A stretch of DNA of 64,000 nucleotides from Halichondria panicea (Eukaryota; Porifera; Demospongiae; Suberitida; Halichondriidae): contig NC_087382.1 in assembly GCF_963675165.1 (NCBI RefSeq), positions 4,813,963-4,877,962 on the forward strand, written 5' to 3'. How positions within the stretch are numbered: the stretch's first letter is position 1; each line of letters opens with the position of its first letter. This document shows positions 11,433-59,000 of this stretch, in pieces. Position numbers and translations under genes: made by a program. Under the pieces are notes generated by a model that saw only the letters and a program-made list of their open reading frames with translations, had not been told where the DNA came from and made no database searches.

Positions 11433-13017
11433 TGCTTCAGGCTGCAAACTTAAGTGTGAAGTAGAAGTCTAGAATCCTCAAACTTTAGTGCTAAATATAT
11501 AACAGTTTAATCAATTATGTCTGCGGTGGCCTAATAATGGATGTGGTAGGTGTGGTATACAATTATAGATTAGATCTACATACCTTAGACCTCACACAAC
11601 CAGGAAACAAGAAAATAGCTGAGCCGTGTACTGTAGAAATGTGGATTGGCAGCCTAGGGCCAATGCTATAAATCAGGGACAGTTCTGGGGAATGGGGCTA
11701 CTATATAACTGTTAATATAATTATATTGGTACTAATTACTTATAACCTAACATACACACTAGTTTCACACGCGCGCACGTAGTGCAGACACCACACATAT
11801 AAATCTACTGAGAGAACCAGCTTATCATTGTCTGTGCGCATGGGAAATTGATAACACAAACTGCAACCATAGCAACAGTGACGACATTGACAGCCACGAT
11901 AAAAATAGAGCTGTTCATCTCAATTAACAGTAGTGAGACAGTACAAGAGACTACATTCTGAGTAAAGCTGTCAATTCCAGTGGGATTATAAGAAGGGTTG
12001 ACAAACATGTATATGTACTAGTTAGGACATAACTGAAACACTAGTCATGCACCCACTATACAGACAGACAAACTTCTTGTTGCCTGAATTGCCAGTAAAA
12101 TTTAATGGTATTCATTCAATCTGTATGTGGCGCTTATACTTGATTCATGTTGTATCAACATTCATCAACATACTGCATACATACCTCTATATAGGAGGCA
12201 TACTTTACTACATGTATTGGGAACATTGCACATGCATTAACTATTAATGTTGTCACACTATATTGTGCCATGGACGGATATAAAAATTCTAAATCTAAAT
12301 AATTTAAAAGGTATGCTGGCAGTCGTCACTATTGTGAATACCTGCAAGCTCTTCCAGACCATAAAGTAAACTTTCACTTCCTAAAATGAAATTCTCAAAA
12401 CAAAAACACCCGCTGAGATAAATGTAAACTACACTGTGTGAGTAGAACACAAGCTCATCATAATTATGTTGATCGCAAATAGTGTATTTCAACATGCAAA
12501 GCAAGATAAATATTGTATGAAGTGAAAGCCATGGATTGTCAATGACTTATTAGGAGTAACAATGAAAGCACTAACTTCAAAGTATCTACAAGACCACACA
12601 TTCCAACACAACACACCTGTGGTGGTTTTAGGTATTTGCCAGGGATCAACACACCAGGGTATACTACTACAGTACCTATACGTACATGTAGTGGCCACCA
12701 GAATAGCTTTTGATATGGTAGATATGTTGTCACTATAATAATAATAATATACTTGTATGGTTGTTGGTGAAGGTAACAATTGAAATTACCAAGGATACAA
12801 AAATAGGGTAAATAAAAGAGTGCCAAAAATAATTATTGTATAAAGATATTCAATTTGCTAAAACTAATATAACGGGTTCTTCACATAATTATAAACTACC
12901 TAGGGCTTAACTTGAACAGTTTTTTAACCGTTATTCATAAAATATACACTTTGTCTAAAAGCTACATACAAGAAAATAGTTACTACATAATTATATGTAC
13001 GCCACCGTATATGTCCG
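11433..13017. other. Intergenic region between genes A and B
   Basis: This AT-rich stretch contains the 5' flank of gene A, the decayed PMS2 exon at 11896-11992 and the 3' flank of gene B. The short open frames here show no recognisable domain or paired splice sites. I see no other gene. Confidence 0.5.
11896..11992 (-). pseudogene. Decayed copy of a PMS2 C-terminal exon
   Basis: The minus strand resembles the PMS2 exon near 52135-52245. The block agctgtcaattccagtggga (plus strand, about 11969-11988) differs from PMS2 agctgtcaattccagcggga at one base. Matches to attctcgtgta and ttcatctcaa follow in the same order. The copy has stops in the PMS2 frame and is not translatable as PMS2. It lies about 460 bp upstream of the gene A start, much as PMS2 itself lies upstream of gene D. 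I infer it is a duplication remnant. Confidence 0.55.
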
Positions 13018-16000: not shown

Positions 16001-19000
16001 CCTTGACTGACATTTTCTTCTGGCGGACGTGGATGATGAAACCTGGTCAGCAGATGTGGGGGATCTGAAATCTGGCCTGGAGCACTGCACTCTAATCGAG
16101 CTGTGTTAGTTTCCAGTGGGCGTCCTGAGCAAAGCTGAGTGTGATTGCTGCCAGCGAAAATGCCACAATTAGTTTGTCTTGATATGCAAACAGGTGCCAA
16201 ACTCGCTCCAGAAGCCACTAATGATTCATTCTTAGTTTTAGTTTTCTTCTTTTTCTTGTTGTCCTTCCTAACATTGAGGTCTTCAGGAGGCCGAACCAAT
16301 TGTGATGTAGTAGCAGGTACCATTAATGCTCTACATTCCTGTCGTGCTTCGTCCAAAGTGTCTTGCTGATTTGCATGCTGGAGTACGGTTTTACTCTTTC
16401 TTCCAGTCAAACTGAAGTATTCAGGAGGCCGGACCAATTGTGATGCATTAGCAGGTGCTTTATCTATTCGTGGAGCTTCAACTGGCGCAGGTTCGGGTGG
16501 ACGAACTTGGTGTGGTGAAACAAGACTGCCTGGGGAGCTTGATAGTGCTGCTCCATTTAACAAAGAGTGAAAGCTATTGTCAAGTTTTGGTTCAATTTCT
16601 AGTGAAGAAGAACTGGCCGATGGACTGACTGGTAAATGAAAAGGTTTCAATTTCACTTCTGAGGTATCACTTTCGTAATCATCAGCACCACTGTCATCAG
16701 TTTTGATAATATTTTTGTCATCGCTGGGTTGCTTGTGTTCGGCTATGCTACGGGTAGAAGTATCGGAATTGTTGTAGTCAAGAGCCACGTCACCACCACG
16801 CACTGTACCGGTTTTTTTTCTCTTTTTCGGTTGCCTACTTCGAGGTTTTGTCGCAGGAATGAGTGCGTTGTTGCCCTTGGAAGACGTTTTGGCTTCTTCA
16901 ACAGTCACAGCCTGCTTCTGCTGTTGAAGTTTGTTCCCTACTTTTCTTTTCTGGGGTGTCTGTAGTTAAAATAACGTATTCATAAATATCAAGTGTGGTG
17001 AAAGAGGTTAAAATATCATTAACGTTAGAAGGAGGAACAGTTAGTGCGTATTAATAGAATAATAGACCCCTGGTGACCAAGTACGTACACACAACAAAGT
17101 GTATGCTTGTGTGGTGGATACAGGATTGTATAACTTGTACACCTTTTTTATTTTCGCAGAACAAGTAGAGATGAACGATATATATATAAGTACATTTTCA
17201 CATAATTATGTCCCGAGTTTATTTACTAGTACGTATTAACTTACAGTGATGTCATGTGACTGTTTCTCGGAGGTTTCTTCGTTATCACTAGACGCTTCGT
17301 CGGTGGAGTTATCCTCATACGAACTATGATTGTCTTTATTTCTCTCATCATCATCCCTTCCTCCACTACCACCACACCCACTGGCACTTGCACCATCTCC
17401 ATTCGATGATGATGATGATGATGACGACGATGTGTTTTTACTGGAAGAGTTAGATCCTGTTTGAGAAGAGGACCCATTGTCAGATTTACCACCAGTAGTG
17501 GTGTCTTTGCTCCCATTGTTATTTTTGCATTTCACTATTGTAGGGTTAGGTGTCTGTTTATATTGTGTTTGCTCGACAGATTGCTGAGATTTTCTAACAG
17601 TCCGATTGTTTCCTTGTTTTGCTGCCAGTTTAGTGGGTGGCTGAGCTTTCTTAAAAGTTGGTTCTATGGCTTTTGAACTTCCATGAGCTTCTCTCGATTG
17701 AGCAATATGTTTTGGTTTTAAGGCATTATCAGGCTGCCTGTTCACTCTAGTGATAGGGAAGAGTTTCGTTTTTCTTATCGCATCTTCAGACTCTGGCAGT
17801 ACTTTACTTTCAGTACGAGGAAGACTTGTTGTCTGAGCTGTAAGATGTTATTGAGCTCCATAACAACAAATCCATTCACTCAAATCTTAACACACATCAA
17901 TGCTATATATGTACGATGCATAATAATTAGACCTCATTAAGAATCATTGAGGCAGCATATTATTTACTCTCTGCTTACTAGCATAATGGAGTCGAGTTTC
18001 CTCCCTCACATGTCCTACACCCACAGGTTTTTGAGAAGGATGATTATCTACCAGCTCAATTGTGGGCTTCTTTTCTTGCAGTTGTGACTTTTCGTCCAAC
18101 AGAGTAGGTGCCTGATCATCACACTGCTCGGTGTGCAGTTGAACAGTGGGCGGGTCTGCAACTGTAATCAAATACTCCATGACCAATTAGAACGACAAGA
18201 AGGTCCATTAATAATCATCAAAAGGGTCCTAAAGCTGTATATACTTACTTGCATCGAGCTTCTCTTCAACTTGTCCTTCACTTTCAGAAGGAGAGTAACC
18301 TGTCAGCTCATGCTCAATTCTGGGCTCTGTTTCTATTGTCTGCTGCTTTGTGGGTAGTTGTTGTTTTCCATTCAATAGTGGACCATCAGGGAGCTCGATG
18401 GGCAGTTGAGAAGATGGCTGATCTGTAAGGTAATCAAATTATTCCACGTAAGTGAGCTCTATAGCAACAACAACATTAGCTATTGAAAGCCTCAAAGTAA
18501 AGCAACACAAACTTTAAGACATTTCTGTCCTCTTACTATCATGGAGCTGAGCATCCTTCTCCCTCACTTCAATTTCAGAAGGAGGATCATCTGCCAGTTT
18601 GTTTTTGGGGTTCTTTTCTTTTGCCAGTTGCAGTTGTGATTTACCGTCCAGCAGAATATGTTCCTGATCATCAGACTGCTCTGAGTGCAGTTGAACATGT
18701 TGCTGGTCTGCAATGTACATATATACATTGTGTTATTAAGCTCTATTATACATACGTAGTAACTAACAAAACGAACAATGCACTGCTAGCTAAAATATTA
18801 TTAGAAGAATCATTTCATGGCAATCACAGCTTAATGGGTTAATAATCGATATAGCAATTGTGCTTACTTGCATGGAGGTGAACATGCTTCTCATTCACTT
18901 GTCCTCCCCTTTCAACAGAACAATGATTAGTTAGCTCAATTATGGGCTCTGTTTCTTCTGTCTGCTGCGTTGAGAGTGTTTGGGGTTTTCTGTTCAGCAG

Positions 19001-20732: not shown

Positions 20733-28531
<7,799 letters not shown>

Positions 28532-31847: not shown

Positions 31848-31884
<37 letters not shown>

Positions 31885-38584: not shown

Positions 38585-40071
38585 TGCTTCAGGTGACTCT
38601 TTATTTCAATAATGCTACACACAATCTGCTAAGACCTACCACTGTCTTTTGACATGCTGGGGGGTGTGTAGTTTTTTGACATGCTGGGGGTGTGTAGTTT
38701 ACCAATAAGGCACATGACAGGAAACACAATACATATTTAGTCGTCCATAGTTAACGGTAATCTAGAGTCAACGCTATTAATCCTGCAGTGTTTAATTGGT
38801 GTTTGATACATCAACCAGGTGCCTGAAGGGGGACATAAATAACCACATACCATGTGCGCACGCACACACACACACACACACAATCACATACCTCAACTTC
38901 CACTCCTTATCTCCCAGTTAAGCTGCAGTATCAATGTTAGCATGTCACACATACATTTATTCTCTATAATCATCATTGATTCTCTATAATCATCATTGAT
39001 TTGTCCTGTGGAAATGTATACTGACAAATACATGATGTACATGCACACACATAATATAATTATACTGTCTAGAGTCCACGACGGCATAATAAAAGAGAGA
39101 AAGTATCGAACAAATCGCTGCCTTGTATCAGTTCGGAAAGTAACGTGATTTCCTGTCTGAAACGCGTGATAAATTATGACAATTTGGTTATAGCATTATT
39201 GCTGCCTCGAGGCAAGTGGCGGATCCAGGCACTTTACTCCAGGCACTTTCCGGCATGGTACATCTGATGCAAGGTAATGCTTCGTTCAATACTCTCCCTT
39301 TTTATTGGACTTTTGCTATTATTTATGGATACAGTCTATATACCTATAACAAGCCAGCCATGGACATACAGCAAATTGTACATTCAAGGTTGGCTCATGA
39401 AACAATATTCACACAATATTCACAATTAACTTCTCCCATGAATTAAACACATGCACCTATACGTATGTAATTTGAAACTTCACTGTCAGGAGCCATTGAG
39501 AAGGGTATAGGGGTGAACACATTACATGGCATAATTATTACATAGACAGCTACGTAAATGTGTGAACAAAACATATTAGAGTGGTTTTCAATGACAGGTG
39601 TCAGCTCCAGTTGGGCAGAGTAGGATGTTGACTTATTTATAATATAAGACAACACCTGTGGTATAAGCAATCTCTAGGAGGCGGCAGCTAAATAGTATTC
39701 ATCCATTAAATAGTCTGTACTACTATATTTAGAGTTTCCAGGCCACAACAATGTCAATGTCTTAGGGCAACCATATCAGTGAATAGGTAAATTTAATCTG
39801 TTGTCTTACGTATTGCCAAGAATATGCACAAACAGGGCAAGTACAAAGAGTGCCAATGTACAAATTATACTAGCTGTACAGCTGGGATAGTCCATTTAAA
39901 TACAGTATACAAAACACATTCTTGCATGGTATGAACAACCTTAAGTACAACTTAATTGTCAGTTACAATAAAAAAAAACTATGCAGCGTATGGCTCATAA
40001 AAATACAACTACTTTACTGCTTGTAATAGCTACGTATACTGAACATATAATTACATCACCGTATATGTCTG
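38585..40071. other. Intergenic region between genes C and D
   Basis: It contains a local duplication (ttttgacatgctggggg, 38657 and 38676 area), a short CA tract (about 38862-38882) and a 20-bp tandem copy of ttctctataatcatcattga near 38960-39000. Small open frames show no domain. No gene was recognised. Confidence 0.5.
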
Positions 40072-43000
40072 CTAGTGTGTTCTCAGTAATTTTAGTAGTG
40101 CGTCTCCCAGTAGAGCTGCCTCTACATCTTGATCACTTTCTTCCACACCATGGAACCAGCTCACAAACCACCGGAGAGAACTGATCGCAACAGAACTGGA
40201 TCCCTGATATAGAGAGAGAAACGTGTCTAAGGTTGAGTGTGTATAGTGGGGAGGCAGAGTTACAGACTGAGACGTAATCACATGCAACTAGTATCATATT
40301 GCAGTTTGGACAGTTGTACTTACTGGATATCTTCGCTCCCAGAGGTCAAGGAACTCCTCAACAAGTCTAACCAGCAATTTAAGCTGTACAAATACACACA
40401 ACATGCAGAGTCAGTTATTCAATGATTCCGCTAATAACTTCATATAGGCACTTTCACATGTGAGGGTATGTACATGGGTACATAATTATGTATATACTGT
40501 ACATTGTTACAGTGAGCTGCATGACTATCACTTCATACTATGATGTGTATAATTGTCTTAATTAGCTATAATATGATTAACTCACAGTTATTGCTGTTTG
40601 ATGACTGTTGAGAGGAACTAGATGAGACTCTGGGATACTGACAACTCTAGGCACATCGATTGTGATTGACTCCACGGTTGTTAGTCCGTGTTGTTTCTGA
40701 CGCAAGAACTGTATGATGTCGACCATCACCTGGCACAGCTCCTTGGCACCGTCATCCAACGTCACAAAGTCACCAATGTATTGACAAAGAAGGACCCCTG
40801 CCATTACAATTATACAGAGTATCAAGATTAGCTAGGAGAGATAGACATGAACAGTTCACCGCCTGGAGGCATAATTAAATCATAATTATCATGGAAGGCA
40901 TTTGTGTGTACACATTGCATTATTAAATTATCATAATAGAAGACATACAATTAACTTTTGCTTTCCACAAAAGTGTGCTACGAAAACTTAAAACCTACCC
41001 TGAACACATTCCCATCACATGTACAGTACACTATAATGCACAAGGAACCCCTACTCATGCACGGCCATGCTATAAAGGCCAAGCATCCAGGTCTCAAATA
41101 AAAAGTTTGTGTGAACAAAACAACCCTTCAAAAACTGAAGGCCACCCAGTAATAACGGCCAAAAACTTGTTCCCCAATTATTATGTCCACTCTAAAGGAG
41201 TTCCCTCACCATTGCCTTCTCTGCCATGAACATTGAAGAAGCACTGACGTGGCCTGCAATTAGTAGCTTCCATTAAAGGTCCACTCTACAACAGAACATG
41301 TGGAAACAATAATAGATATCATTTCACACATGATAAAAGCGTGCACTTACTTGACCAGTGCTTGGGTCACTAGCTAACACCACAGCTCCAGGACTAGGGG
41401 CTAATTCGTTCTCAGCAGGACCAAGTAATGCCATGAACAGTGTTGGACCATTACAGTGATTCGATGGCGGGCGAATATAGTGGAACATATACGCAGTGTT
41501 CATTTCATGACATCTGTGGGTTCTCCGATGATTATGTGAGTACACAACCAATTCCTAAGTGAAAAAACAAATCGGGCGAAAGGTACATTAATTAGCAGAG
41601 GAAATTACATTATAAAAGCATTGTCACGCATAGCCTGCGATGGAAGCTACTACCGTATAGCGGGTAATTTTCGTGAGGTAAAATATTCGTTATTTTCGTG
41701 GGCAAGCTGATCTCCATGAAATTATAATGTAAGCGTGGCTTACCGGAACGTATGAATGCAGTGCAGGCAACGAGACTAAACGAAATTTTACTGACAAAAC
41801 CACCGTTTTCGAGTTGAATTTTTTTACCCCACGAAATTATACCTGTTATACGGTAATCACTGCATGGGTATATATGACACAAATATATAGCTAGGCACAA
41901 TGTATACACTCACTGATGAAGACCGGGATTTTGACTGGCCAACTTCTTGCATTGGAGCAAAAAACAATGGCCTTTCTTCCCCAACCGACTCCGCTTTTGA
42001 AAGTGAGCCCTCCACACTTTCAAGCTGCTGTGATGTCCTATCAGCGGAGCTAGAGTGTTCAGGGGGGTGAATATAATGAGGAGGGTTGAAACTAACTCCT
42101 CCATCAAAAGGTGTAGGTTGAACAGGCATCAATGTTTCAGCACTATCATGACTGCCCACTGAGATTTGAGGTGTTTTCAAAGTCGGACTGGTGGCTTTAC
42201 CATGGCACGGCTTCAATTTTACTTCTGAGGCATCACTTTCATATTCAGCAGCAAAATTGTCACCAACTGTGATGCTGGGTTGCTCGTATTTGGTTAGTTG
42301 TTCTATGCTAGGATTAGAAGCATCGGAATCGTTAGAGTCAAGAGCCACACCACCACCACGCACTGTACTCGGTTTTTTCCTCTTCCTTTGTTGCCAACTC
42401 TGAGTTTTTGTCACAGGGATAGGTGCGTGGTTGCCCTTGGATGCTTTATTAGCGGCTTCTTTAGCGACTATGGTGTTAGTTACAGCCTGCTTCTGCTGTT
42501 GATGTTTCTTGCGTGCTTGTTTTTTCTTGCATTGCTTGGGTCGCTGTAGTTGAAAAACAAAAGCCCAGTTATATAAATATGATAATGTACTAAAGTAGTG
42601 GAAGGAGCTAAACTTTAGGGGAGTAGCATAGAATAAGCTTCCTGTGAACGTGCATTCACATCAAGAGTATACACTCTTGTTGCTCATACAATACACGTGA
42701 CTTATACATACCTCTTTGATGTATACAGGGTTAAGGCTACCGAATGACTTGTAGACAGAGGACATACATTCATCCCTTTTAACTTGGTTGTGATAGGCTA
42801 ATACAACCTGTGATGAACAATACACATACACGTAAGCACATGCACACTGACACATTTAGTTGAATACTACCTGTATGTCAGCAGGGAAATCAATATCCAC
42901 ATCTTTGGAGGCTTCTTCGTTATCACTCGATTCCTCTTCAGCAGAACTTTCCTCACTTGAAATGATTCTGTGATTGTGTTTATTTCCCTCATCATCATCC

Positions 43001-46000
43001 TTTCCTCCGCTACCACCACACCCACTGGCACCTCCACAATTACCGTTCGATGATAATGATGATGATGATGACGATGTGTTTTTACTGGAAGAGTTAGATC
43101 TTGTTTGGGAAGAAGACCCATTGTCGCGTTTACCAGGAGTGGAGTTTTTGCTCCCATTGTTGTAGCACAGTATTCGAGGGTTTCCATTTTTACGGCTGGT
43201 ATTGGTTTTTATATGTGAAGAAGATTGTTTGTCTGTAGATTTTTCCAGGTCGACCCTTAGCCCGTAATCTTCCTCAGGGTGTTTCAGAGGTTGCTTAGAA
43301 CATACTTTCTTTCTTTGCTCTTTTCTACGCCTCGCACGATAGTTCTTTTCTATACTTACAGTTTCTTCACTGCCACAAGAAGCGTCTGCATTATACTCGA
43401 CTTCTAGAAGAGGAGATGAAGCTTCACCATTTTGCAGTGCTCTGCTCTTGTCAGTTGATTTTCGATTTATGGCTTTCTTGTCTTTTTTGTCTTTCTTTCT
43501 GGTGGCTAAGCGGTATGCTCGAAAACAACTACTGTCACTATTGGGTGATATTGATTGTTTCTCAACAGAAGCTATATTGTCAGGAGATTTTAGAGGTATC
43601 ACGTCACTTTTTATTTGTGATTTCATTGTAGGATTCTTTCGCCGTGAACATCTGGTAACAGTGCTGACTTTTGTCACACTCTTTTTGGTGTATTGTGTTT
43701 TTGGTTTCGGCTTGTTAGTAGCTTCTTCTTTTTGTACAGCTCGAAATTGTTTAGTAGGCATCTGTGTTTGCTCGACAGGTTTTCTAACAGTCCGATTGTT
43801 TCTTTGTTTTGTTGCCGGGTTAGTTGGTGGGGGAGATTTCTTAACAGTTGGCTTTATGGATTTTGAACTTCCACGAGCTTCTCTTGATCGAGCAAGGGCT
43901 TTTGGTTTTAAGACACAATCTGGCTGTTTCTTCTGGTTTGCCTTTGCACTGGAATGTTTTCGTTTTCTTGTCCCAATATTATTTTCTGCCAGTAATTTCT
44001 TTTGCGTTTTAGGCTGTTTAGGTGGTGGGGACTTTCCAGACCATTCTTTAGTGACTGTGTGTGTTTCTGCGGATTGTTCTGTTACACATTTCGGCTCTAG
44101 GGGAGATTGGCTCTCATGGTCTGACTCAGAAGTGAACTTTACGTCTTTACACGGCAGAGCAGCTAAATAGATAACACAAATAGAAAACATGAAAAAATAT
44201 ATATAGAGTTACATTGTACACTGAGCTCCATGCTGCACAGAAACAGATGAGCGCTGGTAGGACACACAAAACTCTCTGAGACACATTTTAACAGACAGAA
44301 GCATACCTTCATCTTCTCGTTCTTGTTTGTATTGGGCTGATGTGACCTGTATGAGCATACGATACATATAAATTATACACTAATACCAACATAATTATGC
44401 TGTAACAGCAATATGTGAAGTTTAGACAATACCAAAGTTTTTTTATCAAGTTAATAGTAGCTTCCTTTTAGGCTTGTTCACCTTTTCACTGACGGGAAGT
44501 TCCTTCTGTCTTGGCCCAATATCCTTTGCATCCAGTACTTCCTTTTGCTGGTCAGATGATTCACTAGTGACTGGTGACTGTATGTGTGTTTCTACCACTT
44601 GTCCTGTCACACCTTTCGGCCCTAGGAGCGATTGGCTCTCATGATCTGACTCAGAAGTGAGCTTTACGGGTTTAAACGGCAGAGCAGCTAGACAAATAGA
44701 AAACCACTGAGTTCCATGCGCAGCAACAGTTGGGCATTGGCTCCTACGACACAATATTGCAATACCCCACAAAACTTTCTACAGACACAGACAGGGGCAT
44801 ACCTTCATCTTCTTCAGCTTGTTCTTGTTTTTGTTGGGCTGATACGACCTGCGATGAACGATATACGTATATACACTGTAATCACACTGATACCGTGCAA
44901 CCGATACAACACATTTACAGTGAGCTTGATATAATAACAAAAGTTTTTCATCAATTTACTTCTTTTTTAGGCTTGTTCACCTTTGCACTGACGGGAAGTT
45001 CCCTCTTTCTTGGCCCAATATCCTTTGCATCAGACTTGGCCAGTACTTTCTTTTGCTCTGTAGGCTGGTCAGATGATACGCTGGTGACTTGTATGTGTGT
45101 ATCTGCCGCTTGTCCTGTCACACTTTTCGGCCCTAGGGGCTTATGGTCTGACTCAGAAGTAAGCTTTACCCGTTTACACGGCAGAGCAGCTAGACAAATA
45201 GAAAACCAGTGAGTTCCATGCGCAGCAACAGTTGGGCATTGGCTCATTAATGACACAATATTGCAATACCCACAAATCTTTTAAACAAAAACATTCGAAC
45301 AGACAGGGGCATACCTTCATCTTCATAGACCTGTATGAGGGATGTATACATTCATTGTAACCGATACAACAATTTAACAGTGAGTTTTATACAATACAAA
45401 CGTTATCATCAAGTGCTTCTTTTTTAGGCTAGCTTGTTTACCTTTGCACTGATGAGAAGTTCCCTCTTTTTTGGCCCAATATCCTTTGCTTTAACTGCAT
45501 CAGGCTTGGCCAGTACTTTCTTTTGCTCTGTAGGCTGGTCAGATGATTCTCTAGTGACTGGTGACTGTATGTGTGTATCTGCCGCTTGTCCTGTCACACT
45601 TTTCGGCCCTAGGAGCGATTGGCTCTCATGGTCTGACTCAGAAGTGAGCTTTACGCGTTTAAACGGCAGAGCAGCTAGACAAATAGAAAACTACTGAGTT
45701 CCATGCGCAGCAACAGTTGGGCATTGGCTCACAATATTGCAATACCCCACACAACTCTCTACAGACACAGACAGGGGCATACCTTCATCTTCTTCAGCTT
45801 GTTCTTGTTTTTGTTGGGCTGATACGACCTGCGATGAACGATATACGTATATACACTGTAATCACACTGATACTATATTATGCAACCGATACAACACATT
45901 TACAGTGAGCTTGATATAATAACTAAGTTGTTCATCAATTTAATAATAGCTTCTTTTTTAGGCTTGTTCACCTTTGCACTGACGAGACGTTCCCTCTTTC

Positions 46001-49000
46001 TTGGCCCAATATCCTTTACTTTAATTGCATCGGACTTGGCCAGTACTTTCTTTTGCTCTGTAGGCTGATTAGATGATTCACTGGTGACTGGTGACTGTAT
46101 ATGTGTATCTGCCGCTTGTCCTGTCACACTTTTCGGCCCTAGGGGCGATTGGCTCTCATGGTCTGACTCAGAAGTGAGCTTTACGCGTTTAAACGGCAGA
46201 GCAGCTAGACAAATAGAAAACCACTGAGTTCCATGCGCAGCAACAGTTGGGCATTGGCTCACAATATTGCAATACCCCACACAACTCTCTACAGATACAG
46301 ACAGGGGCATACCTTCATCTTCTTCAGCTTGTTTTTGTTTTTGTTGGGCTGATACGACCTGCGATGAACGATATGCGTATATACACTGTAATCATACTGA
46401 TACTATATTATGCAACCGATACAACACATTTACAGTGAGCTTGATATAATAACAAAGTTGTTCATCAATTTAATAATAGCTTCTTTTTAGGCTTGTTCAC
46501 CTTTGCACTGACGAGACGTTCCCTCTTTCTTGGCCCAATATCCTTTACTTTAATTGCATCGGACTTGGCCAGTACTTTCTTTTGCTCTGTAGGCTGATTA
46601 GATGATTCACTGGTGACTGGTGACTGTATATGTGCATCTGCCGCTTGTCCTGTCACACCTTTCGGCCCTAGGGGCGATTGGCTCTCATGGTCTGACTCAG
46701 AAGTGAGCTTTACGCGTTTAAACGGCAGAGCAGCTAGACAAATAGAAAATCACTGAATTCCACGCACAGCAACAGTTGGGCATTGGCTCATTAATAACAC
46801 AATATTGAAATACAAATCTTTTACAGAAACATTCGAACAGACAGGGACATACCTCCATCTTCTTGTTCTTGTTGGGCTAATACGACCTGTGATGAATGAT
46901 ACACTAACCAACTGATATAACAAATTCTATTTTAGCGAGTTATACATTGCTAAAGTGTGTTACAGAGTTACACTGTATGAGGCTTGTTTACCTTTGCACT
47001 GACTGGAAGTTCCCTCTTTCTTGGCCCAATATCCTTTGCTTTAATTGCATCGGACTCTGCCAGTACTTTCTTTTGCTCTGTAGGCTGCTTAGGAGGTTGT
47101 GACTTTCCAGACAATTCTCTGGTAACGGGTGACTGTATGTGTGTTTCTGCTGCTTGTCCTGTCAGCTCAACAGTTGGCTGATCTGCAGGGTGTTATTCAG
47201 CTGTATAAAACTTAAGTGTGTAAATAAAAAGTCATGCAATCCCTTCCGCGTTACCCTTTCATGTTATATTACATTTTCACATAGATTTTTTTTTTGTAAT
47301 AATTTGGTAAGGGTCGTCATGATATAAAACACATTATTGCATGAGAATCCTCGTTTTATGCAAACTCGCCCTCGTGCTTGTATACTTCATAAAACACTCG
47401 GTCTCAAGCTATTATATTCCACTGTCAAGGTAACAAGGTTGTTTATACGTACATTCCGTCATTTAGCCTCGAGGCATGATTTGGTAAAAGGGGTTGTCAT
47501 AAAAACATTCGGTATCGATTACAAATCCATTCACTCAACATGATCTTATAGGCTTCTAAAGCAAGCAAACAAACAATTGCTATCTAGCTTAGCTAGCTAC
47601 GTACTCACTTGAACAGAGGTGAGTATCTTTTTCTGCCACTTGTCCTTTCCCTTCAGAAGGAAGATCATCAGGGAGCGATGGTTGATCTGTAAGCCGGGTG
47701 GGTAATCAAATTAAGGAGCTCAGCAATATTCCATGTATACACAACGTATCCTTTTATATAGGAGGATCAACAAGTAGCTTATCGGTCAATGATCATTTAC
47801 ACGTAATATCATCCGGCCAACTGAATTATGCAACATAATAAATTGCTGTCTATACTTATAATTACTTGTACAGAGCTGAGTATCCACTTGTACTTCACTT
47901 TCAGAATCTGGTGGTTCAGTTGTGGGCTTGTTTTCTTTTGCCAATTGCAGTTCCAATTTTCCGTCCAGCAGAGTAGGTGCAGTGGGCGGGTCTGTAACTA
48001 CTGTAATCAAAGTATACAGATAAATAGTCCTGCATGAATGAAAGCACGCGGCTGATGCCTCAATGGAGGTGTCAAAGCTACCTATTAGCTATACACGCAT
48101 TTATATCATGTAATATTGCTGCATGCGGGCTGAATCTAGAATTATACTGAGAAACTCAAAGAGAGTGATGGGAAGTGATTGACCATGATTGTTGTTAAAA
48201 AGAATGAATGGTTGCATCGGTAGAGCCTTGCAGCTCTATTCTCATTCATGCAGCTACTATTATAGCTAGCGTTCTAGTGCAGAAATAACTGCTATATAAG
48301 TAGAGTAGCAACACTCATGGACAAGTTTTTCTACGCACTTTTCTGAAAAGGCTGCAATGGAGAACCAAGCAAATCCACGAAAACATGAGTAGATAGAAAC
48401 TTTTACTTGCACTTCATTGATATATAGCTGTAACACTCTACACAGCTAGACACACACATACAGAGACACACATGCAGACACACCGTATACCTCGCTTGCG
48501 CATGCGCACCGAGGCACAATGTAAACACACCAATAGGCCGATCAATAACACCATACTGTATACTTACTTGCATGGTGCTGAGTATGCTTTTCCTCCATTT
48601 GTTCTTCCCCTTCATAAGGAGGATCATCTGCCAGCTCAATGCTGAGCTCTGTTTTTATTGTCTGCTGCTTTATGAGTAGTTGCTGTTTTTCGGTTAGCAG
48701 CAGACTATCAGGGAGGTCGGTGTACAGTTGAAGAGATGGCTGATCTGTAAAGGCAAATTATTCCAGCTATATTGCACTGCATACACACACCGCACCATTA
48801 GCTATATTTTTACAAGAGTCGTTTCAAAAAGGGTAAAAAAAGCTGTAATTATGGCTCAATAAATATAAGTATAATATTGGGCCCCTCTCTTCCAACGTTG
48901 TTGTCTATATACTTACCTGCATGGAGGTGAGTATCCATATTTATGGCATTCAAAGTTGTTTGCTCTTGTAGTGGCTCCTCACTGTTGTAAGGATGGGGTG

Positions 49001-50983
49001 TAACTGAAGTGGACATCGACTTTATTTGAGCAACGCTGCAGCTTTCACTACCAAAAGAAGGCTCTAGGTTGATTCTGTCAGACTTGTTCGGATAGTCTTT
49101 GGCGTCTGGTCTAGCATCAGGGGCTGAATCAATGCAATGGATAGCAAAGTTAAACAGTTCAGTGAGGCCTGGCATCTTTTGTCTAACCGATATGATGAGA
49201 CTAGCTCGCCTTTCTGTCTCTGGAATAATTTCAGAACCATCCATACGACCACTAATGTCTGGCTGTGGAAAAGAGCCATTGTGCACGATAAGTAAAACTA
49301 GTCCAAAGGAGAACATATCGATTTTTGAAGAGAGATGAGAGACCTCTTCTTGTTTATCAGCATTTTGTGAGACTTGTGGGGGCATAAATGCTGGATTTCC
49401 AGGGAAATTTTTGCTTGAAGGGCCCAGATACTGTGCACATCCAAAGTCAGCTAGCTTAGCACTTGCACCGTCTTTCGAAAGCAAGATGTTAGTGGGGTTG
49501 ACATCTCCGTGAACAATTCCTCTGTCGTGGATATATTCTAAAGCTGATGCAATGTTTGACATGGTGTTCTGCTTGTTGAATGTTTGACCTGCAGCCAATA
49601 TATCGTCCAAGTTCCCGTGAAGCCTTTCCATCACTATATACTGGAAACGATAGTTTTCGTCCCATTTTTCATAGTGGGTGAAATATTGCACAACGCAGGG
49701 ATGGTGAATACCATTCAAGATATCGATTTCATCTTTAAAGCAAGAAGCTCGATAGTTCTTTTGTTTCCTTGTTTCAATGTGATGAAGCAGAGATGAATGG
49801 TACTTCTTTACTGCACATGGCTTGCCCTTATAGTCTCCAAGATAGACTGAGGCGTAACTGCCACTACCGAGTTTTTCGTGATCGATTGTCAAATCCACGG
49901 CCATGTTATCTGGCAGTGTACACGTATCCAAGGAACAATCTGCAAGTAAGGAGTGAAAATACTAACAATGTCATGTTATTCATGAACCTGGGGAAATTTA
50001 GAGATCAGATGATCATAATTATACAATCGTTATTTGATTGTATATTTACAACTGCATCTATATAGTCGTAATACCGTACCTCCTTCAACGGCAGAACGTT
50101 CACTGGCTGGGATAAATTCATCGTCTTCTGCAAGTTTACTGTATTGGCAGAATATTCATTATAGATAGCTGACTAAAATAATATTCAATTAGTGGGTAAA
50201 AAAATTAGTGGTCATGGGGGGAATGTGATTCGGGAAGTCCTTGGGGGGGACAGTCCCAGGGAAACTCCCAAACCTCTCAACCATGGGATACTAACACTAT
50301 TAAAAACTCATAAGCATATGTACCATTTCTTTGAAGCTGAAACTGCAGTGTAAGGAGGTGGCTTTTCTTCTGGGTAGTTCGGGCAGTTTCCTCCTGTGAA
50401 AATAATATCAGCTTATGTTTTATGGTGCGTAGTGAGTGCCACTTACTGCCTTTGGTCACAGTAGATTTGTATGATTCACTCTTAAGATACGATGTTTGTG
50501 CCGACGAGATACTGCATGTATAAAATTAATAGAGAGAGTGGAATCACATGCATGCACATTAGGAATATACTATAATTATATAGGTGTTCAGTTGCGACGA
50601 GTATGATACGTGAGGGACCACTCATAATTATAGTGACATATACCGATTATATTCTAGCTATCTCTCAACAATGTTTACTATAATTACATCTTCTGCATGG
50701 CTATAATGATTCAAGTTGGCGTATCTATTAAAATACCAAATGCACTTTGCAATAATGATGTCAAGACTGACTCTTTAGCTCATAATCATAGAATTTCACT
50801 GCCTAGATCATTATTATATGCAAGCACCAAGGAAGCATACTTCACTAGCTAGCTAGAACCTCACTTGAACTCCCCAGGCTGATCTTTGCTGGACTCAACA
50901 ATTTCCCAGCCATCATAATCATATGATTCGCTTGCATCCACAGCTCCAACCTGAGGCTGGGAAGAGGAACTGTTGTTTCCCAT
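40072..50983 (-). CDS. Gene D: N-myristoylated protein kinase fused to a long repeat-rich linker and the family C-terminal region
   Basis: Spliced CDS, minus strand, starting at ATG 50983. The N-terminus MGNNSSSSQPQ is a strong myristoylation signal. Short exons (about 50460-50515, 50335-50395, 50090-50150) encode a linker with a PPPY motif. Exon 48917-49939 is a complete kinase domain. It is followed by phase-1 modules (about 48565-48745, 47872-47998, 47618-47687), a tandem exon array (44.2-47.2 kb), a large basic/serine-rich exon with GASGCGGSGGKDDDE (about 42875-44163), an exon near 42711-42808, an exon with IHPPEHSS-type text (about 41915-42544), and C-terminal exons matching gene B (about 41348-41556, 41212-41290, 40588-40800, 40320-40384, 40072-40205). 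It ends LLKLLRTH. A membrane-tethered signalling scaffold is a plausible inference, no more. The kinase and the rest could be two genes. The kinase exon ends in phase 1 (HLHA, then G) exactly like the modules that follow, which favours one gene. Confidence 0.65.
41651..41855. mobile_element. MITE with TACCGTATAGCGGGTAATTT termini
   Basis: The ends taccgtatagcgggtaattt and aaattatacctgttatacggta are inverted. It is the same family as 5830-5979 and lies in a gene D intron. Gene B has no counterpart at the equivalent place. Confidence 0.65.
44170..47190 (-). repeat. Tandem two-exon array in gene D, period about 490-530 bp
   Basis: Each unit has a small exon (VVSAQQKQEQAEEDE type) and a larger one that starts A(L)P(F/C)KRVKLTSESD and runs to a basic end, GPRKRERLVSAKVNKPKK. 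The common point gcagcta recurs near 44159, 44684, 45185, 45671, 46201 and 46730. The edge unit near 46980-47185 lacks the first part. The units ending near 46201 and 46730 differ at only about ten positions by eye. The basic ends resemble bipartite nuclear localisation signals. Open frames on the plus strand are shadows. Confidence 0.8.
48056..48516. mobile_element. Third copy of the TGCCTCGGTG-terminus element
   Basis: The left end tgcctcaatggaggtg and right end cgcttgcgcatgcgcaccga bound an interior that matches 24591-25064 and 31443-31850. A short CA-rich tract precedes the right end. It lies in a gene D intron. Confidence 0.6.
48917..49939 (-). other. Kinase-domain exon of gene D (341 codons)
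   Basis: A single exon carries all kinase landmarks: glycine loop LGSGSYASVYLG, ATP lysine in CAVKKY, alpha-C glutamate in CFKDEIDIL, catalytic loop HGDVNPTNILL, metal site LADFGCAQYLG, GNPAFMPPQV at the APE position, KIDMFSFGLVLL and DARPDA. Departures from consensus are HRD to HGD, LKP to VNP and APE to PPQ. The catalytic Asp and Asn and the DFG remain, so activity is possible but may be altered. Overall it resembles Ser/Thr or dual-specificity kinases of the tyrosine-kinase-like group (inference). Confidence 0.85.
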
Positions 50984-51165
50984 GGTCAATGTGTCTAGGC
51001 TTTAAATTATAGCTTTATTTACTATTGATGTACTGAAAAAAGGCTAGCTTTATATATTGCACTGAAAATTAACCCAGCCCATCCCATTTTTGACAGGAAC
51101 TTCATTGAACCACATAAACACATACCGGTACACTGCACTGATACATTGATACACTGACTGACTAG

Positions 51166-52963
51166 CTATAGTGGGTCAATGTTCAGTCTGGATAGATCCA
51201 CAACATGTCTGAAGGTCGGGCGTCCGTGGGGACAGTTCTGGAGGGGAAAAAGGAACGATTTAGCGGATTCAGAGCAATATGGAATAATGATACACAATCA
51301 AAATACACACATTCCCCTTGTTAATTGTGTGGTGTCTGTGGAGTGGAGTGAGGCTAATACATACACACCCCCACCCCCACCTCTCTACACACTCACCCAT
51401 GGTTGCTCCATCTCTCCCATATGGTAAATAAGCTGCAGTATAAATTTTGGAATGGTAAAGACATTGCATGCAGTATGTTGAAAACAGCATTACCTTGCTC
51501 ATTTCAGATACTTTTAATGCAGTTCCAATCATAATAGATGTTCTGTGAAATGCAAAGGCATATATAAAACTTTTACTACTGCATGTACTCATTACCATGC
51601 ACCAACCTGCAAGCCCTTGAGGCAAAGTAAGCTCTCACTGCACTGGGCCTCACAATCTCTCCCTGCATGTACATGTACATGTATAGACAGATTGAGGACC
51701 ATACCAAGCGCTTTAATTTGAGTATAAAAAATCTGCAGTTGAGCATGCGCTTAAAATAAAGATACGTCTATAATCGAGTAAGCGAATAATCCAGTAATAG
51801 CAACCATTATTATAGTAACAACTATAATTAATTAGCTGCCCTTCTAAGAGGGCGGCTGATTCATGAGACTAATTAGCACTGTGTTGTCAGTGGTGATGTA
51901 CCTCTGAGACTCCACTATCTGAGAGCAAGAATACCAGCTCATCAATATCTGTGAAAATTGTATCCATTAAATTGCCATAATTATACCTATATAATCACTA
52001 TGCACCTTTGGGCCCTAGTGACCATTGGCCCCCATAGACTGGTTTAGAAGTGAGCTTTATCCTCTTACACGGTGAAGCTGTGGATGCAAGCATAATCACA
52101 TTCAGTATGGACACAACTAACAGTACTTCACCCATAACTGTACCATTGTGGTCAATCTCAAAGTGAAAGCCATTCATCTCAAACAGCGAGAGATTGTCAA
52201 TGACGACATTCTCGTGTACAGCTGTCAATTCCAGCGGGATTGGGCTGAACGGAAGGAAACAACAGTACATTGTTTTATCAGACTCTTGTTTACAAAGTAG
52301 TATATATACTGATACAGAGGAAGTTTATTTAGACAATTGGGACTCTGTAAACAGTGTCAAGAGTAGTACTCGGACAGTGTACATTGTAAATATAAACACT
52401 GCATATAATTTTGCTACACCTACACAATACATAGTGCAGCCTTGGGCACAATTCATAGTTCTGGTAGAAAGTTTGTTTGGTAGACAAATTGTCTGCAAAT
52501 AATTATAATTATGAACATATTAGGAATTAATTTCATTCTCATAATGGCCTGCCTGCCTGCCACTACCCGGATAAGTTACCTGATCAGCTTCTGGTGCTTT
52601 ATAACCATCTCTCTCTGAAGTCGCTCAAAGTTATACTTCTCATCAGTAGCATGCTAAAGAAAAGATATTATTATGCCTCGGGGCATATAATCATATAATT
52701 ATGCGATAAAGCTGCATGCAATATTATTGGTGGTACACGTACACATACAATGTAACAATGAATGAATACATTTGCCACTATATTGGTATGCAACAGGGGT
52801 CACTGTTCATACACACACTCTCATATACCTGGTCCACAATGAAGAGATCACTCCCGAGTCTGGTGATGATGAAACCAAGGTTGAACTGGGCAAGCAAAAG
52901 AATCCATTGATGTGGCATACATAATTCCAGGTGTGTGTGTGTGTGTGTGTGGGTGTGGTGTGT

Positions 52964-53024
<61 letters not shown>

Positions 53025-56000
53025 ATGTGTGTGCTAGCCACCACACTGTAGTAACATGTACCTGTCCACATACAATGTACATTGTATATTCATACATGCA
53101 TACACCATATTAGCCACGAACATTCTTAGTAAAACTTTCCCACAATACAGGCCACAATAAAGAAGCCCCTAAGGCCATATACATTAGGTACCCATGATAT
53201 TCACATATTCACTGTCCAGTAATATTATAGTTCCAATTGGCCACTGCCGCCACAACACCACTTGTACCCAAACACAATGTGTGGGGGGGGGGTAATAAAA
53301 TACTTACTTGTCCCAGCACTTTCATCTTCGAAAAATCACTTTTCCTGCATATAGTTTTAACAAATAGAAATGCCATGTACCCAACAAGGTACCTTCCTAA
53401 CTGTATTAAGGAACCTTCTTAGGAAAGTATTAAAAAAGGGAGAAAGCTAGTATCAGGAGTGTCATGCACTCCTGCTAGTATCAGTAGTGAAATATAACAG
53501 GCAAACACGCAAAGTTAGTCTGGCTGTGGTTGGAATCACAATTTTAAGCCAAGTATAAATTATGAACAACAGTGACATGCAGTTTATGTATTTAGTGGTC
53601 TATTATTGTACATGCTCTAATTGTCACCTTATCTCTTTCCTCAATTCATTTTCAGCGTCCTTGTTAGAAGATGGCGTGATCTTGGCTCGGAAACACCTCC
53701 CACCACCAACACTCTCACCGTCCCTCGATAACTGCGCCGCCTCCAGTCGCTTAGCAACCGCTCGGAGGTCAAAAGATACAGACTGTGTCAATGGTGGTTC
53801 GTATTGAGGTGACTTTAAATTATGTGGAGTGATAGTTTTAGCTTTGGATTTGGCAGCAGAATTCCTATTAATTATATTCGTGGGAGGAACTGTTGTACCG
53901 GATGAAGTGATTAGATTGAAACTGATAGCGTTTGTTTCAGCTCCTACTGTTTCCTTAACATTACAAGAGTTAATCATAATATTATCTTCGTGGCTTGATC
54001 CAACATTAGAAATGGGCTCCACCAAATCATCCACTACTGTAACAGGTGTGTCTATTCTCAAACTGTCAGTTTCAGTTTCGTGAACATCATTAATTCCAGC
54101 GGAGCCACTACTCAAAGTGGATATTTCGGAGGGACTTTTTGTTGAATCGGTAATCACATACTCGGTGTCCATAGCAACTGCTGGGTCACGTGTTTCCATC
54201 TCTTCTACAAAGATATGTGTTGATAAGATGGGGGACTCCCGGTCACTTAGTGATGAGTTAAGGTCGGGGGTTGGTCGGGTCACACCATAGTCAGATAGTT
54301 TGGCCTCTGAATAATTATAAGGGAAAATAAGACAATGCGTGGTGAAAACAAACTGATTTACAACGGATGTACAATACAGAGGAATGTAAGTCATATGACT
54401 GTGTACTATAATTATAATGATAGGTAATTTTGGGACAATCACTTTCAGCCAATTTGCAAGGTAGTAATTAGCTGCGCTAACGTTTTGATTGTGGTTGACT
54501 GGCTGTGTTATCAGCTCCATGGAGGAATCTACAGGGAAAAGACCAAATAAGTACATTTGAGAAGAGTAATTCAGTTGTCTGTAAATCAGACAAAAGAAAC
54601 ATCAGTCATGCATGCAGGATAATTAGAAGCTGCTGTAGCTGCATGTAGGAAATTGATATAGGAGTCATACTGCAAGAGTTTTACTTTATTATGGGTATTA
54701 TGGGGGAATGGGACACGTGGGACACAGGCTTTAAAAGTACTGAGCCTTTAAAGGCCAATTAATATTCACTACATACAATATTGCAATTGAGGCTATGTCA
54801 CAGTTCAAGAAGTTGGGCCAGTCCTGCAGTTGTACGAGCTTTCATTAACGTAGCATGAGCCATAAACTGTTGTCGTGCAGGAGTTCATGCAGTCATAATA
54901 AACTCATGAGCAGCTAGTGTACCGTTTGAGTGATCCTCGAGTAGAGGGTGTGTCCTTTGCCGATGATACTGCTGAGTCAGCAGTGTGGGCTGGGCTAGGG
55001 GTGTGGTCACTGGTGTCGTACACGCCTTGCATTGGCTCAAACAACTTCTTCAGTGTTACCTACACATTTTACGTCATATATTATTTACAGACTTGATTTT
55101 TATTGTGCCTTTCGTCATTACAAACAATATTCACAGCCTTAAGTACAACAGTTGATCCTCCTGTAATTGTAGTCATATTTGTGTGTGTATGTGACAAGTC
55201 ACATGTACAAATTGGCATACCCCTATTGTACAGAGAACTAATTGCAGTATTGTAAATAGCCCATACAGCAATTTCATTCAATTCTCTATTGTTATAACTG
55301 ACAACATGCTTGGCATAACTAAATGTCACGAGTTATTGCATGCATACCAAGTACATGTATGTAATATACTCACTTTAATCAACAGCAGGAGAGCCTTCTC
55401 TTGATGCAGCATCACCTTACGCTTGTCAGGGGTCACGTTGACATCAACATGCTCTGTGGATGAAGTTGAAACAAAAAATACAAACACATAATTATATAGT
55501 GTGAAGCAAAAAAGCAATGTTGTATGGATGTTTGGTAAAGATCATTAGCAGTAAAAGTAATTAATGCTATGTAATAATTGGTAAAGGGTCATTATAAAAA
55601 AAAGTTAAAAATAATTTGATACACACACAACTTTGAAGAACATGTACCTCGATCCTCATTTTGTGTGCAAGCAATGATGATCAACGATCAACACAAGCAC
55701 AAGAGTATGGAGCATGCGTATGAATGCACTAGCTAGCTCTCACCTCTAGGTGTGGCGATGCAGAGCACTATGAACGGGTACTGGTGTCTGTTGTAACAGT
55801 GGTACACCTCGTTCACCAGCTTGCTCAACTGAAGGGGGGGGGGGGCAAAGATTTTTAGATTGATGCAGACAACTTCAGTATAATTTTGAGCTGAGTCTTC
55901 TGCAAAGAAGCTGTTCTTTTAATTGTTTAACGATAGAGTACTAGCTTACCAATGCATGAGACTCTATATTAGCCTCCTTATAGATCATTACCTTGGAGTA

Positions 56001-59000
56001 ATCGCAGGGTCGGTTATTGAAGAAGAAAAACTGTCGATCTGTAGATCCACGTCCGTAGCCATGGTTACAACGAGACACATATCCACTGAGTCTGCAGACA
56101 AAATATATTAGCACTGAAGTGAAGACAAGTGTAATGATCATACCCATCAAACAATAATATAGTTCAGAAATTTGTGAACTAGAGAACATACAAACTGTAA
56201 ACTGGACAATTGGTTTTTTGTGCATTTAGAATTATAGACTACACAGATGTAATGCTTTAATTGCAGTTTTTCTCACTTGAATAGGTTAGTGTTCTCAATG
56301 GACTGAGCAGACTCTCCTTCTGCTGCTAGTACATCGTCATGTGAGCATGGGACAATCTCTACCAGCTGAGAGAACTGATACAGTGTGTGGGCGGAGGGAT
56401 GCACACAGTACTATAATTATGTGTACCGTACGTATTACTATTGTAACAATGTTTTGCGAGCGAAAAACCTTTGCAAAGGAGCCAAATCAGCAGAAATTTT
56501 TAAACTGTTATAAGATCGTGATGTCACACAAGTACCGGTATAATTTATGTGTTTGCTCTTTTATTTTTGCAAAGCCTTTAGCACAAGTTTGCATATGTTT
56601 GATGCTCGGAAACATTGTTAAGTATAGTAATCTGTAGAGTTTTAGTACACGTCAATATAAAGCAGAACTCAGTAAATCTTATAATTATAGCAATTAATAC
56701 CTGTTTGGCTCCGAATACGTCAGTGATGTTGTCTTTGAGGTTAGGATTACCACTGGTAGAGAGGACCACCTGCTTGCCACTGAGGTGCCAGAAGTAAGAT
56801 TTATAAACAAAAGTAGAACCTTTGTATATAATTATAGATACTATATTTTCATCAGTCTCTCACTATAAAAATATAATATGATTGTACGTAACCTGCTAAA
56901 ATGTGATCTTGTACATGTATAGGGACACTGCGTGGATGACTGCATGTGCTATTATAGTTATAGTAACGCTATGGTTACGTAACAGATGTACTGTGTACAC
57001 TAGGTTTGACTTGTAACTATAGCAGCACAAACAAACTGATCACCCTTTCTTGGTGAGGTTGTGGCATGTGATCTTCACTCCTGTGCTCACTACACAATAG
57101 CCCTGGAGCAACTGAACCATCTTCACAAAATCCTGTAGAAGATTGAATCTTATATTAGGCTACAGTATCAAGAAACAAACAGTTCAAGTACTCCTAAATG
57201 TGGACTGCCTGAAATATGAACATGCGCCTCTTGTACGAGTATGTTTTCCCAAGTCAATAAGAAGTGCAGCACATGCATATCCAGTTATGTAGAAGAAATC
57301 TGAACAATTATTAACGATATAATTTATGTAAACAAATATTCAATGGAATCTAAACACACACCGTAAAGATTCAACAAACAGAACAGAAACAACTTTATAT
57401 GGAAGCTAGCGCTGACTACATGTACAGTGTACGTGCATGTGTATACACTGTATGTACAGCTCGTGCATGTATGTGCAGGCTCACCTTCTTGATATTCCTG
57501 ATGAACTCTTTTCTACGCACTGGGAGAGAATGGAACAGGTTCTTCAGAGAGACAGTTGTACCAGCCTGTACAAATGAGAGGGAGGGAATCTTATCTGGAC
57601 CTTGACCATCACAGATCTATAAAACACACTTAGCAAATTTTTAATTAAGCATTTCAAAGCTTTTTGGAAGTTGTTGCATTAAGCTCTGTAGTCAATGTGT
57701 ATGGTCATTCAAAGGTTGCTATGGAACCACACCTCACTCAGAAAATAGATTCAGTCTCAATGATGCCAATGACAGTTTAGCTATAACATAAACTGCACCT
57801 GTCTTGCACAAGGTGTTTTTGACTTGATCTGCCCATGATTGTCATACTCCAACTTTGTGCCCACTTTAGCTGTCACATGACATGTAGTGATGCTCAAATC
57901 ACTGCAGGAAAATAACAATAAGAAACTATTTGCACAATTAAACGATTTCAACTTAACAAGGGTAGTATTGCACAAGCACGAATATTGCAAAAGGGAAGTT
58001 GGGGGGGGGGGGAGCCAGATGCCTTCTAGGAGGGTCTAGAAGCATGTCCCCCAGAACATTTCACTGTTTGAGACGGCATTTAATTTTTTTTTTTTTTAAT
58101 GGGATAATTTCATGGGTCCACAGTTTTGCATAGTGTTACATGCTGCCTCGGGCGCTCCGTTGTTACATTTTTGTGAACCAAAACAATTTTAATCTCTTTT
58201 AATCTCACCATGGAGAACACCCTAGCCCACTGAGAGCCTGACATTGCAATAAATACAAAGGAAGCTTGTACAGAGCTTGTACAAGGCTTGTACCTAAACG
58301 AGCTATATAAAGCTTGTACAATATGCTTGTAACTGAGCGAGCTAAAACTTGTACAAGGCTTGTACATAAACAATTAAGTTAAAAGCTTGGTTGAAACTGA
58401 GAGTAAACTAAAGGCTCGCAATTGCAGCTTGAACAATGCTTATAATTATAGTAAAACTGAATGTGGTTTTTACAAGCCCGCTTACATGTAGCTCGTATAT
58501 GTACAAACAGGTGTCTGTAGATAAACACACAACAATGTTGGATACCTCAGTGCACAGAGGGAGCTCAGTGCTTCCCCCCGGAATCCAAATGTTGCAACGC
58601 CCATTTCCAGGTCGGAGAAATCGGAGATCTTTGACGTGTGGTGTTTTAGAGCGAGAGCCTGGAAATTGTCATCTGTGACTCCACCTCCATTATCAATCAC
58701 CTCCACCAGCTCAGAGCCATGCTCCTTTAGCCGAACCTCTGTAGGGAAAGGTACGAAATAAATCACTACTTGGACAAGAACATTACCATTCGTACGTGTA
58801 CGTTGGCTCGTGAAGGTAATCTATAATTTTAGTGGCACCTTATTGAATGCTTTACCAACTAGTGTGTATGCATACCCAAAGCACGATATTTACACAGTGG
58901 TGATGCATGATGCATAATTACGTGACATTATAATAATTATAGTAAACACAGGTTGATACAAAAGGATGAACGAAAAATTTATTCAACGTTTAGCAAATTA

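Follow-up and report, generated by a model that had tools for sequence, protein, structure and literature searches.

Background

Short copies of nearby sequence are found at duplication junctions, as in the templated insertions at rearrangement breakpoints (fork stalling and template switching, FoSTeS; microhomology-mediated break-induced replication, MMBIR). The gain of protein domains through fusion of exons from neighbouring genes has been described in animals (Buljan et al. 2010, PMC2926785), and chimeric genes formed by tandem duplication are known from Drosophila yakuba (Rogers et al. 2017, PMC5460883). The locus described here lies in a 64,000-nucleotide stretch of DNA of the sponge Halichondria panicea (contig NC_087382.1, positions 4,813,963 to 4,877,962), called the window, to which all positions refer. 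In the window, six exons of a protein-kinase gene, here called gene D, begin with a block resembling an exon of the neighbouring DNA-repair gene PMS2, and we propose that this block entered D at the seam of a tandem duplication.

Like the templated insertions of the FoSTeS/MMBIR type, the block reproduces a short piece of nearby sequence where a duplication is joined; unlike them, it brings coding sequence together with a splice acceptor in phase, and it has spread through an array. The chimeric Drosophila genes are said to join two ends of one segment. With the cases of Buljan et al. (PMC2926785) the locus has in common that donor and recipient are neighbours, that exon phase is respected and that duplication accompanies the gain, whereas it differs in that about 24 codons of a folded domain, and not a domain, were gained, at a tandem seam and six times. 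As in the report of Rogers et al. (PMC5460883), the breakpoint of a tandem duplication makes a new exon combination; in contrast to it, a third sequence (PMS2) is present at the seam, brings an acceptor and has been copied along with the array. Among the literature matches listed, judged by titles and the beginnings of abstracts (more papers matched), there was no description of the capture of a PMS2 exon by a neighbouring gene.

A PMS2 exon matches the starts of six gene D exons

A first-pass annotation of the window had stated that PMS2 exon 52006-52077 and the starts of six exons of gene D share sequence, acceptor position and reading frame, with a block identical at the nucleotide level, and had suggested aligning 52000-52090 with 44080-46740 against shuffled sequence. 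The exon (52077-52006, minus strand) is bounded by cag/CTTCACCG and CCCAAAG/gtgcat (a slash marks a junction). The suggested local alignment, with the minus strand of D, yielded a score of 60 over 70 nt without gaps, and none of 1000 dinucleotide shuffles scored as high (mean 18.5, standard deviation 2.4, maximum 31), which bears out the sharing of sequence. In a blastn search within the window, the PMS2 exon matched the starts of six exons of D (46733, 46204, 45674, 45189, 44687 and 44162; units U2 to U7 of the array described below), with E values from 1.0e-10 for the best match to 0.001 for the weakest. Identity was 77.1% of 70 nt for the match from 46725 (E 1e-10), 75.7% of 70 nt from 46196, 74.3% of 70 nt from 45666, 77.2% of 57 nt from 44666 and 74.6% of 71 nt, with gaps, from 44154; the match from 45181 (85.2% of 27 nt) is shortened by a 9-nt deletion. 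Reading frame and acceptor phase (phase 1) are the same in the PMS2 exon and the D block, whereas the acceptor of D is located one codon upstream of that of PMS2 (CTGCTCTGCCG vs CTTCACCG), so that the claim of a common acceptor position holds for the phase and almost for the site. An identical nucleotide block does exist, namely TAAAGCTCACTTCT (14 nt).

When 51180-59140 was divided into 354 overlapping 91-nt tiles covering both strands, the score of 60 was reached only by the tile covering the PMS2 exon; two minus-strand tiles overlapping it scored 36 and 34, the best remaining tile scored 31, and no PMS2 exon next to the captured one scored in D. When the 131,455,214-base assembly was searched at the DNA level with the D exon, seven places were returned at E <= 0.001, all in the window, namely the six D exons and PMS2 (E 2.9e-7). 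The sensitivity of this search is limited: with the preceding PMS2 exon as query, the same tool overlooked a 79% match at 11.9 kb that was found by blastn (see below), and its silence is weak evidence. With the translated D exon, the genome yielded seven places at E <= 0.1, every one within D (U1 and the six units that carry the block), and a PMS2 piece matched four at E <= 1, all of them PMS2 exons. In viral contigs scanned with the D exon, none of 18 pattern matches encoded a relative. That the block is short (about 70 nt) is the one point in favour of chance similarity, the probability of which we regard as negligible given the shuffles (0 of 1000), the best E value of 1e-10 and the agreement of frame and phase; the similarity between PMS2 and D can be considered confirmed at the level of sequence.

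Between PMS2 and all six D copies there are 12 fixed differences in 66 columns, and a PMS2-like base is kept at column 5 in U5 and U7 and another at column 12 in U5. These patterns point to one capture, followed by amplification. In comparisons of the block between PMS2 and D, dS was 0.41-0.64 and dN 0.21-0.35, values derived from only about 14-16 synonymous sites.

PMS2 as the supported source

The first-pass annotation had assigned the PMS2 segment to the conserved C-terminal domain, and this was corroborated: the segment lies inside a MutL_C domain (Pfam, E 1.3e-18), and yeast PMS1 chains align through it (4e4w, E 6e-52, obtained with a query containing one wrong residue). The identification of the gene as PMS2 is based on both the MutL C-terminal domain and a match of the PMS1/PMS2 type. 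A deletion of exon 14 of human PMS2 is described as c.2276-?_2445+?del, p.Ala759Glyfs*8, and the exon starts at c.2276 in codon Ala759 (PMC5586063; the boundary also from PMC9843912). Intron 14 begins at c.2445+1 (PMC4521968), and N775 (p.N775S) is in exon 14 (PMC3398144). The nucleotide c.2276 is the second base of codon 759, and the human intron splits the Ala codon after base 1. The alignment of the present segment with human PMS2 uses the human residues following Ala759, and the location of N775 agrees with it. In this alignment, the 5' intron of the sponge PMS2 exon also splits an Ala codon (G/CT), at the same residue and in the same phase as at human Ala759, so the exon start looks old in PMS2.

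Taken together, the alignment with yeast PMS1, the shared residue and phase of the human intron and the existence of D exons free of the block support transfer from PMS2 to D, in agreement with the capture that had been proposed from the letters of the window. The reverse, a D sequence overwriting the PMS2 exon, would draw on nothing but the adjacency of the genes, and as the segment aligns through a conserved domain of yeast PMS1, keeps the human intron phase and residue, and has block-free counterparts in D, we consider it very improbable.

The tandem array and its seams

The array consists of seven copies of an exon, exon A, in units U1 to U7 (Table 1); the block is present in U2-U7 and lacking in U1. 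U1 starts with cag/ATCAGCCAACTGTTGAGC, continuing TGACAGGACAAGC. In contrast, U2-U7 start with tag/CTGCTCTGCCG, then the PMS2-like block, which ends in AAAGGTG (U2 and U6), AAAAGTG (U3-U5) or AAATGTG (U7) and is followed by TGACAGGACAAG in U2-U6 and by TAACAGAACAAT in U7. The exon tails of U1 and U2-U6 are 87.5-91% identical; the corresponding value for the intron behind the exon A tails (U1 vs the others) is 52-63%. The first-pass annotation took the tail of the D exon to be new, reached by reading through the old donor site. The evidence does not support this: the tail is homologous to D's own U1, to the long D exon and to a paralogue of the latter.

This paralogue, near 17.8 kb, lacks the block and was used as outgroup. 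The acceptor region of U1 was homologous to that of the paralogue (start at about 17837; score 41, reached by 0 of 1000 shuffles, maximum 30), whereas the acceptor regions of all six units U2-U7 scored 14-20 against the paralogue, and between 101 and 778 of 1000 shuffles did as well; their score against U1 was 14, which equals the shuffle mean. The body of the paralogous exon was homologous to U7 (score 64, shuffle maximum 52); its score against the PMS2 exon, 15, was below the shuffle mean and indicates no similarity. The block-free state is seen twice, in U1 and in the paralogue. The seam reads AAAGGTG/TGACAGG, that is, the PMS2 exon plus about 3 nt joined inside an older D exon; by reading, any microhomology at this joint amounts to an ambiguity of 0-2 nt, and the other joint is in an intron without a recognisable source. 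Because U1 and the paralogue share an acceptor region that is absent from the block-bearing units, the block is placed at the junction of tandem copies, and, as judged from these alignments, every block follows the end of one copy and precedes another copy whose beginning is truncated.

The 5' part of U7 was homologous to U1 (score 155, shuffle maximum 53), and a GKSxPPK stretch is kept in both and missing in U2-U6; on account of this homology and the common stretch, U1 and U7 appear to represent the opposite extremities of the original exon. The exon after U7 (starting at about 42807) was matched by exon B of U1 (score 73, shuffle maximum 38). The match ends about 14 nt past the B donor, with no similarity in the intron that follows.

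At the position of the U1 donor AAAG/GTAAAC (46992/46991), the U7 exon has the coding sequence AAAGGCAAACC (near 43930), and the B donor likewise falls in a stretch whose counterpart in the exon after U7 is coding. At the donors of exons A and B, exon sequence may have turned into intron. The alignment of U1 with U7 extends beyond the exon A donor by about 13 nt, but the start of the U2 intron was no more similar to the U7 exon than shuffled sequence (779 of 1000 shuffles were as good).

The window also contains a long and broken segmental duplication (5300-21546 and 30043-48765) with many collinear blocks of about 69-90% identity, which includes paralogues of the 3' exons of D (17.2-21.6 kb).

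Proposed mechanism and alternatives

Homology, direction, seam structure and open frame can be taken as demonstrated. We assign a probability of about 0.57 to a tandem duplication with a PMS2-derived insert at the seam, which supplied the truncated copy with a phase-1 acceptor. One D exon and part of the next exon would have been duplicated in tandem, and the duplicated copy would have begun inside the exon, at TGACAGG, losing its own splice acceptor. The last 70-75 nt of the stretch at the seam would come from the adjacent PMS2 exon, comprising a phase-1 exon start and reaching about 3 nt past the old donor, and would have given the truncated copy an in-phase acceptor and about 24 new in-frame codons. 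Later, unequal exchange would have multiplied the unit with its seam, resulting in six block-bearing exons (U2-U7) behind the block-free U1. Insertion and duplication may have been a single event; DNA-level template switching is the preferred route, and the exons are presumably spliced as modelled. This model accounts at one stroke for the lack of the block in U1, for its presence in every subsequent unit and for a tail that predates it. The multiplication of the captured exon noted by the first-pass annotation stands as far as the six copies are concerned; the block was probably copied along with the duplicated unit rather than multiplied as a separate exon.

Several observations weigh against this reconstruction. 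No similarity to the introns of PMS2 was seen in D upstream or downstream of the block in any of the six units (right-anchored or local alignment against shuffles), and as the flanking introns are unlike those of PMS2, the insert cannot be proven to be a copy of genomic DNA. The matching PMS2 intron past the exon end is GTG, only 3 nt and weak evidence. The intron before the block (108 nt) had five matches in a genome search of limited sensitivity, all in the array, and the introns before U1 and U2 have a 22-nt similarity that is out of register and was equalled by 20 of 1000 shuffles. For the intron that separates exon B from the block-bearing exons, U1 and the other units share 76-92% identity, approximately the level of the exons, so exon conservation alone is no proof of selection. 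Moreover, a similar pattern would result if the insertion had affected a single copy and gene conversion had then spread it, and the second PMS2 fragment (see below), derived from an exon and starting near its start, could hint at copying from RNA. Intron homology as proof of a transfer at the DNA level was dropped, the alignments being no better than shuffles.

In exon shuffling in two steps, the PMS2 exon with its intron flanks would have been inserted into a D intron, a deletion would have fused it to the next D exon, and the product would then have been multiplied. The phase-1 acceptors of both genes fit this course of events, and the joining of exons of adjacent genes has been reported to be probably the main way in which animal proteins gain domains (PMC2926785). 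Taking into account that flanking intron similarity is missing on both sides, although divergence may have erased it, and that two-step shuffling alone leaves the position of the block at a tandem seam and its absence from U1 unexplained, we regard it as rather unlikely.

A second PMS2-derived fragment was found at about 11.9 kb, on the same strand, and corresponds to the preceding PMS2 exon (78.7% over 75 nt, E 1.6e-8 with the PMS2 exon as query; 0 of 1000 shuffles). Its frames contain stops or do not match, its match begins about 4 nt inside the PMS2 exon, and there was no clear counterpart in the 30-44 kb region. The two fragments indicate that pieces of PMS2 landed in the cluster at least twice. 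They could both have originated from PMS2 RNA, of which one piece would have been reverse-copied into D and another to 11.9 kb. Such an origin would agree with the start of the second fragment and with the common stretch in D, which ends at most 3 nt from the exon edges and has no recognisable flanking intron. It is at odds with the presence of only one PMS2 exon in D, where the neighbouring PMS2 exons do not score, and with the three bases after the exon, which are those of the PMS2 intron (gtg) and not of the next exon, although three bases are weak evidence. We consider copying from RNA improbable, more so than two-step shuffling, and keep to the tandem duplication with a templated insert.

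The block-bearing exons encode KRVKL in four of the six copies (U2-U5), KPVKL in U6 and KDVKF in U7. KRVKL is the core of the nuclear localisation signal of human c-Myc, PAAKRVKLD (PMC2817886). Judging from its composition, the D tail is probably disordered, and our guess, by analogy, is that the kinase tail carries several copies of a motif for nuclear import or binding; an RKRE cluster belonging to the unit itself, found in U1 too, could serve in import or binding instead. The more comprehensive scenario is possible, though less likely than not, and must be called tentative. In it, a single rearrangement would have combined a partial duplication of the kinase-gene exon with a PMS2 copy restoring the acceptor, so that a defective duplicate immediately became a repeat unit that can be spliced and resembles its neighbours. 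Growth of the array would then have converted part of a folded domain of a repair protein into a series of KRVKL-type motifs for nuclear import or interaction within a disordered tail of the kinase.

Gene D and its kinase domain

The model of gene D was made by hand and comprises 21 exons with GT/AG introns and consistent phases, with 1516 codons and no stop, from the ATG at 50983 to 42871 on the minus strand. The gene probably continues past 42871, because another exon with a cag acceptor comes after the exon ending there. By reading, D starts about 180 bp past the stop codon of PMS2 on the same strand, a proximity that fits capture from a neighbour. Indels of exon A among U1-U6 are of 6, 9 or 18 nt, whereas those of two introns are mostly not multiples of 3 (two artefacts were left out, namely 1 in the U1 rows, which stems from trimming, and 11/2 in U5-U6, where the aligner split overlapping deletions). 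Alignment of U7 with U1 had gaps of 2, 7, 18 and 3 nt in the tail (2 and 7 giving a net 9) and of 1 and 4 nt at the block edge. The dN/dS values of the tails were 0.32-0.41 for U1 vs U2-U5 and up to 1.43 in comparisons with U6. The claim that D is coding therefore rests on the open frame and the indel pattern, not on dN/dS, and on these grounds D is a credible gene.

The Pkinase domain of D (Pfam, 122.8 bits against a cut-off of 31.7) had no solved chain at E <= 1e-25. At E 1e-14 nine solved chains were obtained, covering ULK3, RAD53, TNNI3K, CDPK and PAK, with ULK3 as the best (E 6.6e-19); as they are spread over several kinase groups, assignment to a subfamily was dropped. The next-best genome match to the kinase exon was 33% identical (among the 118 of 712 candidates that were scored), and tblastn within the window found no second copy of this exon.

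Table 1. Positions of the PMS2 exon, the gene D exons and related features in the window
Feature	Position	Strand	Basis
PMS2 exon, MutL C-terminal domain segment, putative source of the block	52006..52077	-	cag/.../gt boundaries; Pfam MutL_C; yeast PMS1 alignment
First exon of D as modelled	50865..50983	-	ATG 50983, model
Protein-kinase exon of D	48917..49939	-	Pfam Pkinase, E 2.2e-35
U1, same exon tail, ancestral acceptor, no PMS2 block	46992..47182	-	Tail identity; acceptor homology to paralogue
Exon B of U1, short	46853..46886	-	Gene model; homologous to exon after U7
U2, exon A, PMS2 block at 5' end	46501..46733	-	77% over 70 nt, E 1e-10; gene model
U3, exon A, PMS2 block	45972..46204	-	blastn; gene model
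U4, exon A, PMS2 block	45442..45674	-	blastn; gene model
U5, exon A, PMS2 block 9 nt shorter, in frame	44981..45189	-	blastn; gene model; indel analysis
U6, exon A, PMS2 block	44482..44687	-	blastn; gene model
U7, long D exon, PMS2 block at 5' end, right-hand array end	42871..44162	-	blastn; gene model
Further B exons	46313-46358, 45783-45828, 45315-45330, 44803-44848, 44307-44346	-	Gene model
Paralogue of long D exon, no block, outgroup	17245..17837 (ends by reading)	-	55% protein match; body like U7, acceptor like U1
Second PMS2-derived fragment, non-coding	11914..11987, perhaps to 11850	-	Match to preceding PMS2 exon 52241-52173

Other features of the window

A Death-domain match (E 7.1e-8) was found at 845-5187 on the plus strand, with NACHT and NLRC4_HD2 matches below the curated cut-offs. 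Open reading frames in this region change frame near 1.95-2.25 kb and later, as in an NLR-like gene with introns or frame breaks. In-frame tandem repeats are located at 8633-8866 and 20788-21024 in minus-strand open reading frames, one of them SPLTEPMDPPVWFDMY-like. GT/AC dinucleotide tracts of several hundred bases each, at 25040-25350 and 25680-26190, are open in several frames.

Discussion

Homology between donor and recipient exons, polarity of the donor and compatible phases were all found at this locus, as in exon shuffling. Intron flanks that moved along with the exon were not found, which speaks against the classic form by intronic recombination. As in templated insertions, the insert stands where one copy stops and the following, truncated copy sets in, as seen from the alignments of U1, U7, exon B and the paralogue. 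We regard the case as a form of exon shuffling between neighbouring genes that is distinguished by a third sequence at the seam.

The donor, the recipient, a block-free paralogue, the block-free U1 and six copies of the block are all present within 64 kb, so that the steps by which a new piece of protein arose can be read in one place. Duplicates of partial exons are normally unspliceable, and the locus suggests a route by which they might be rescued, namely a seam that carries a borrowed in-phase acceptor. If this is confirmed by RNA and in a second species, the usability of partial exon duplicates would become directly testable.

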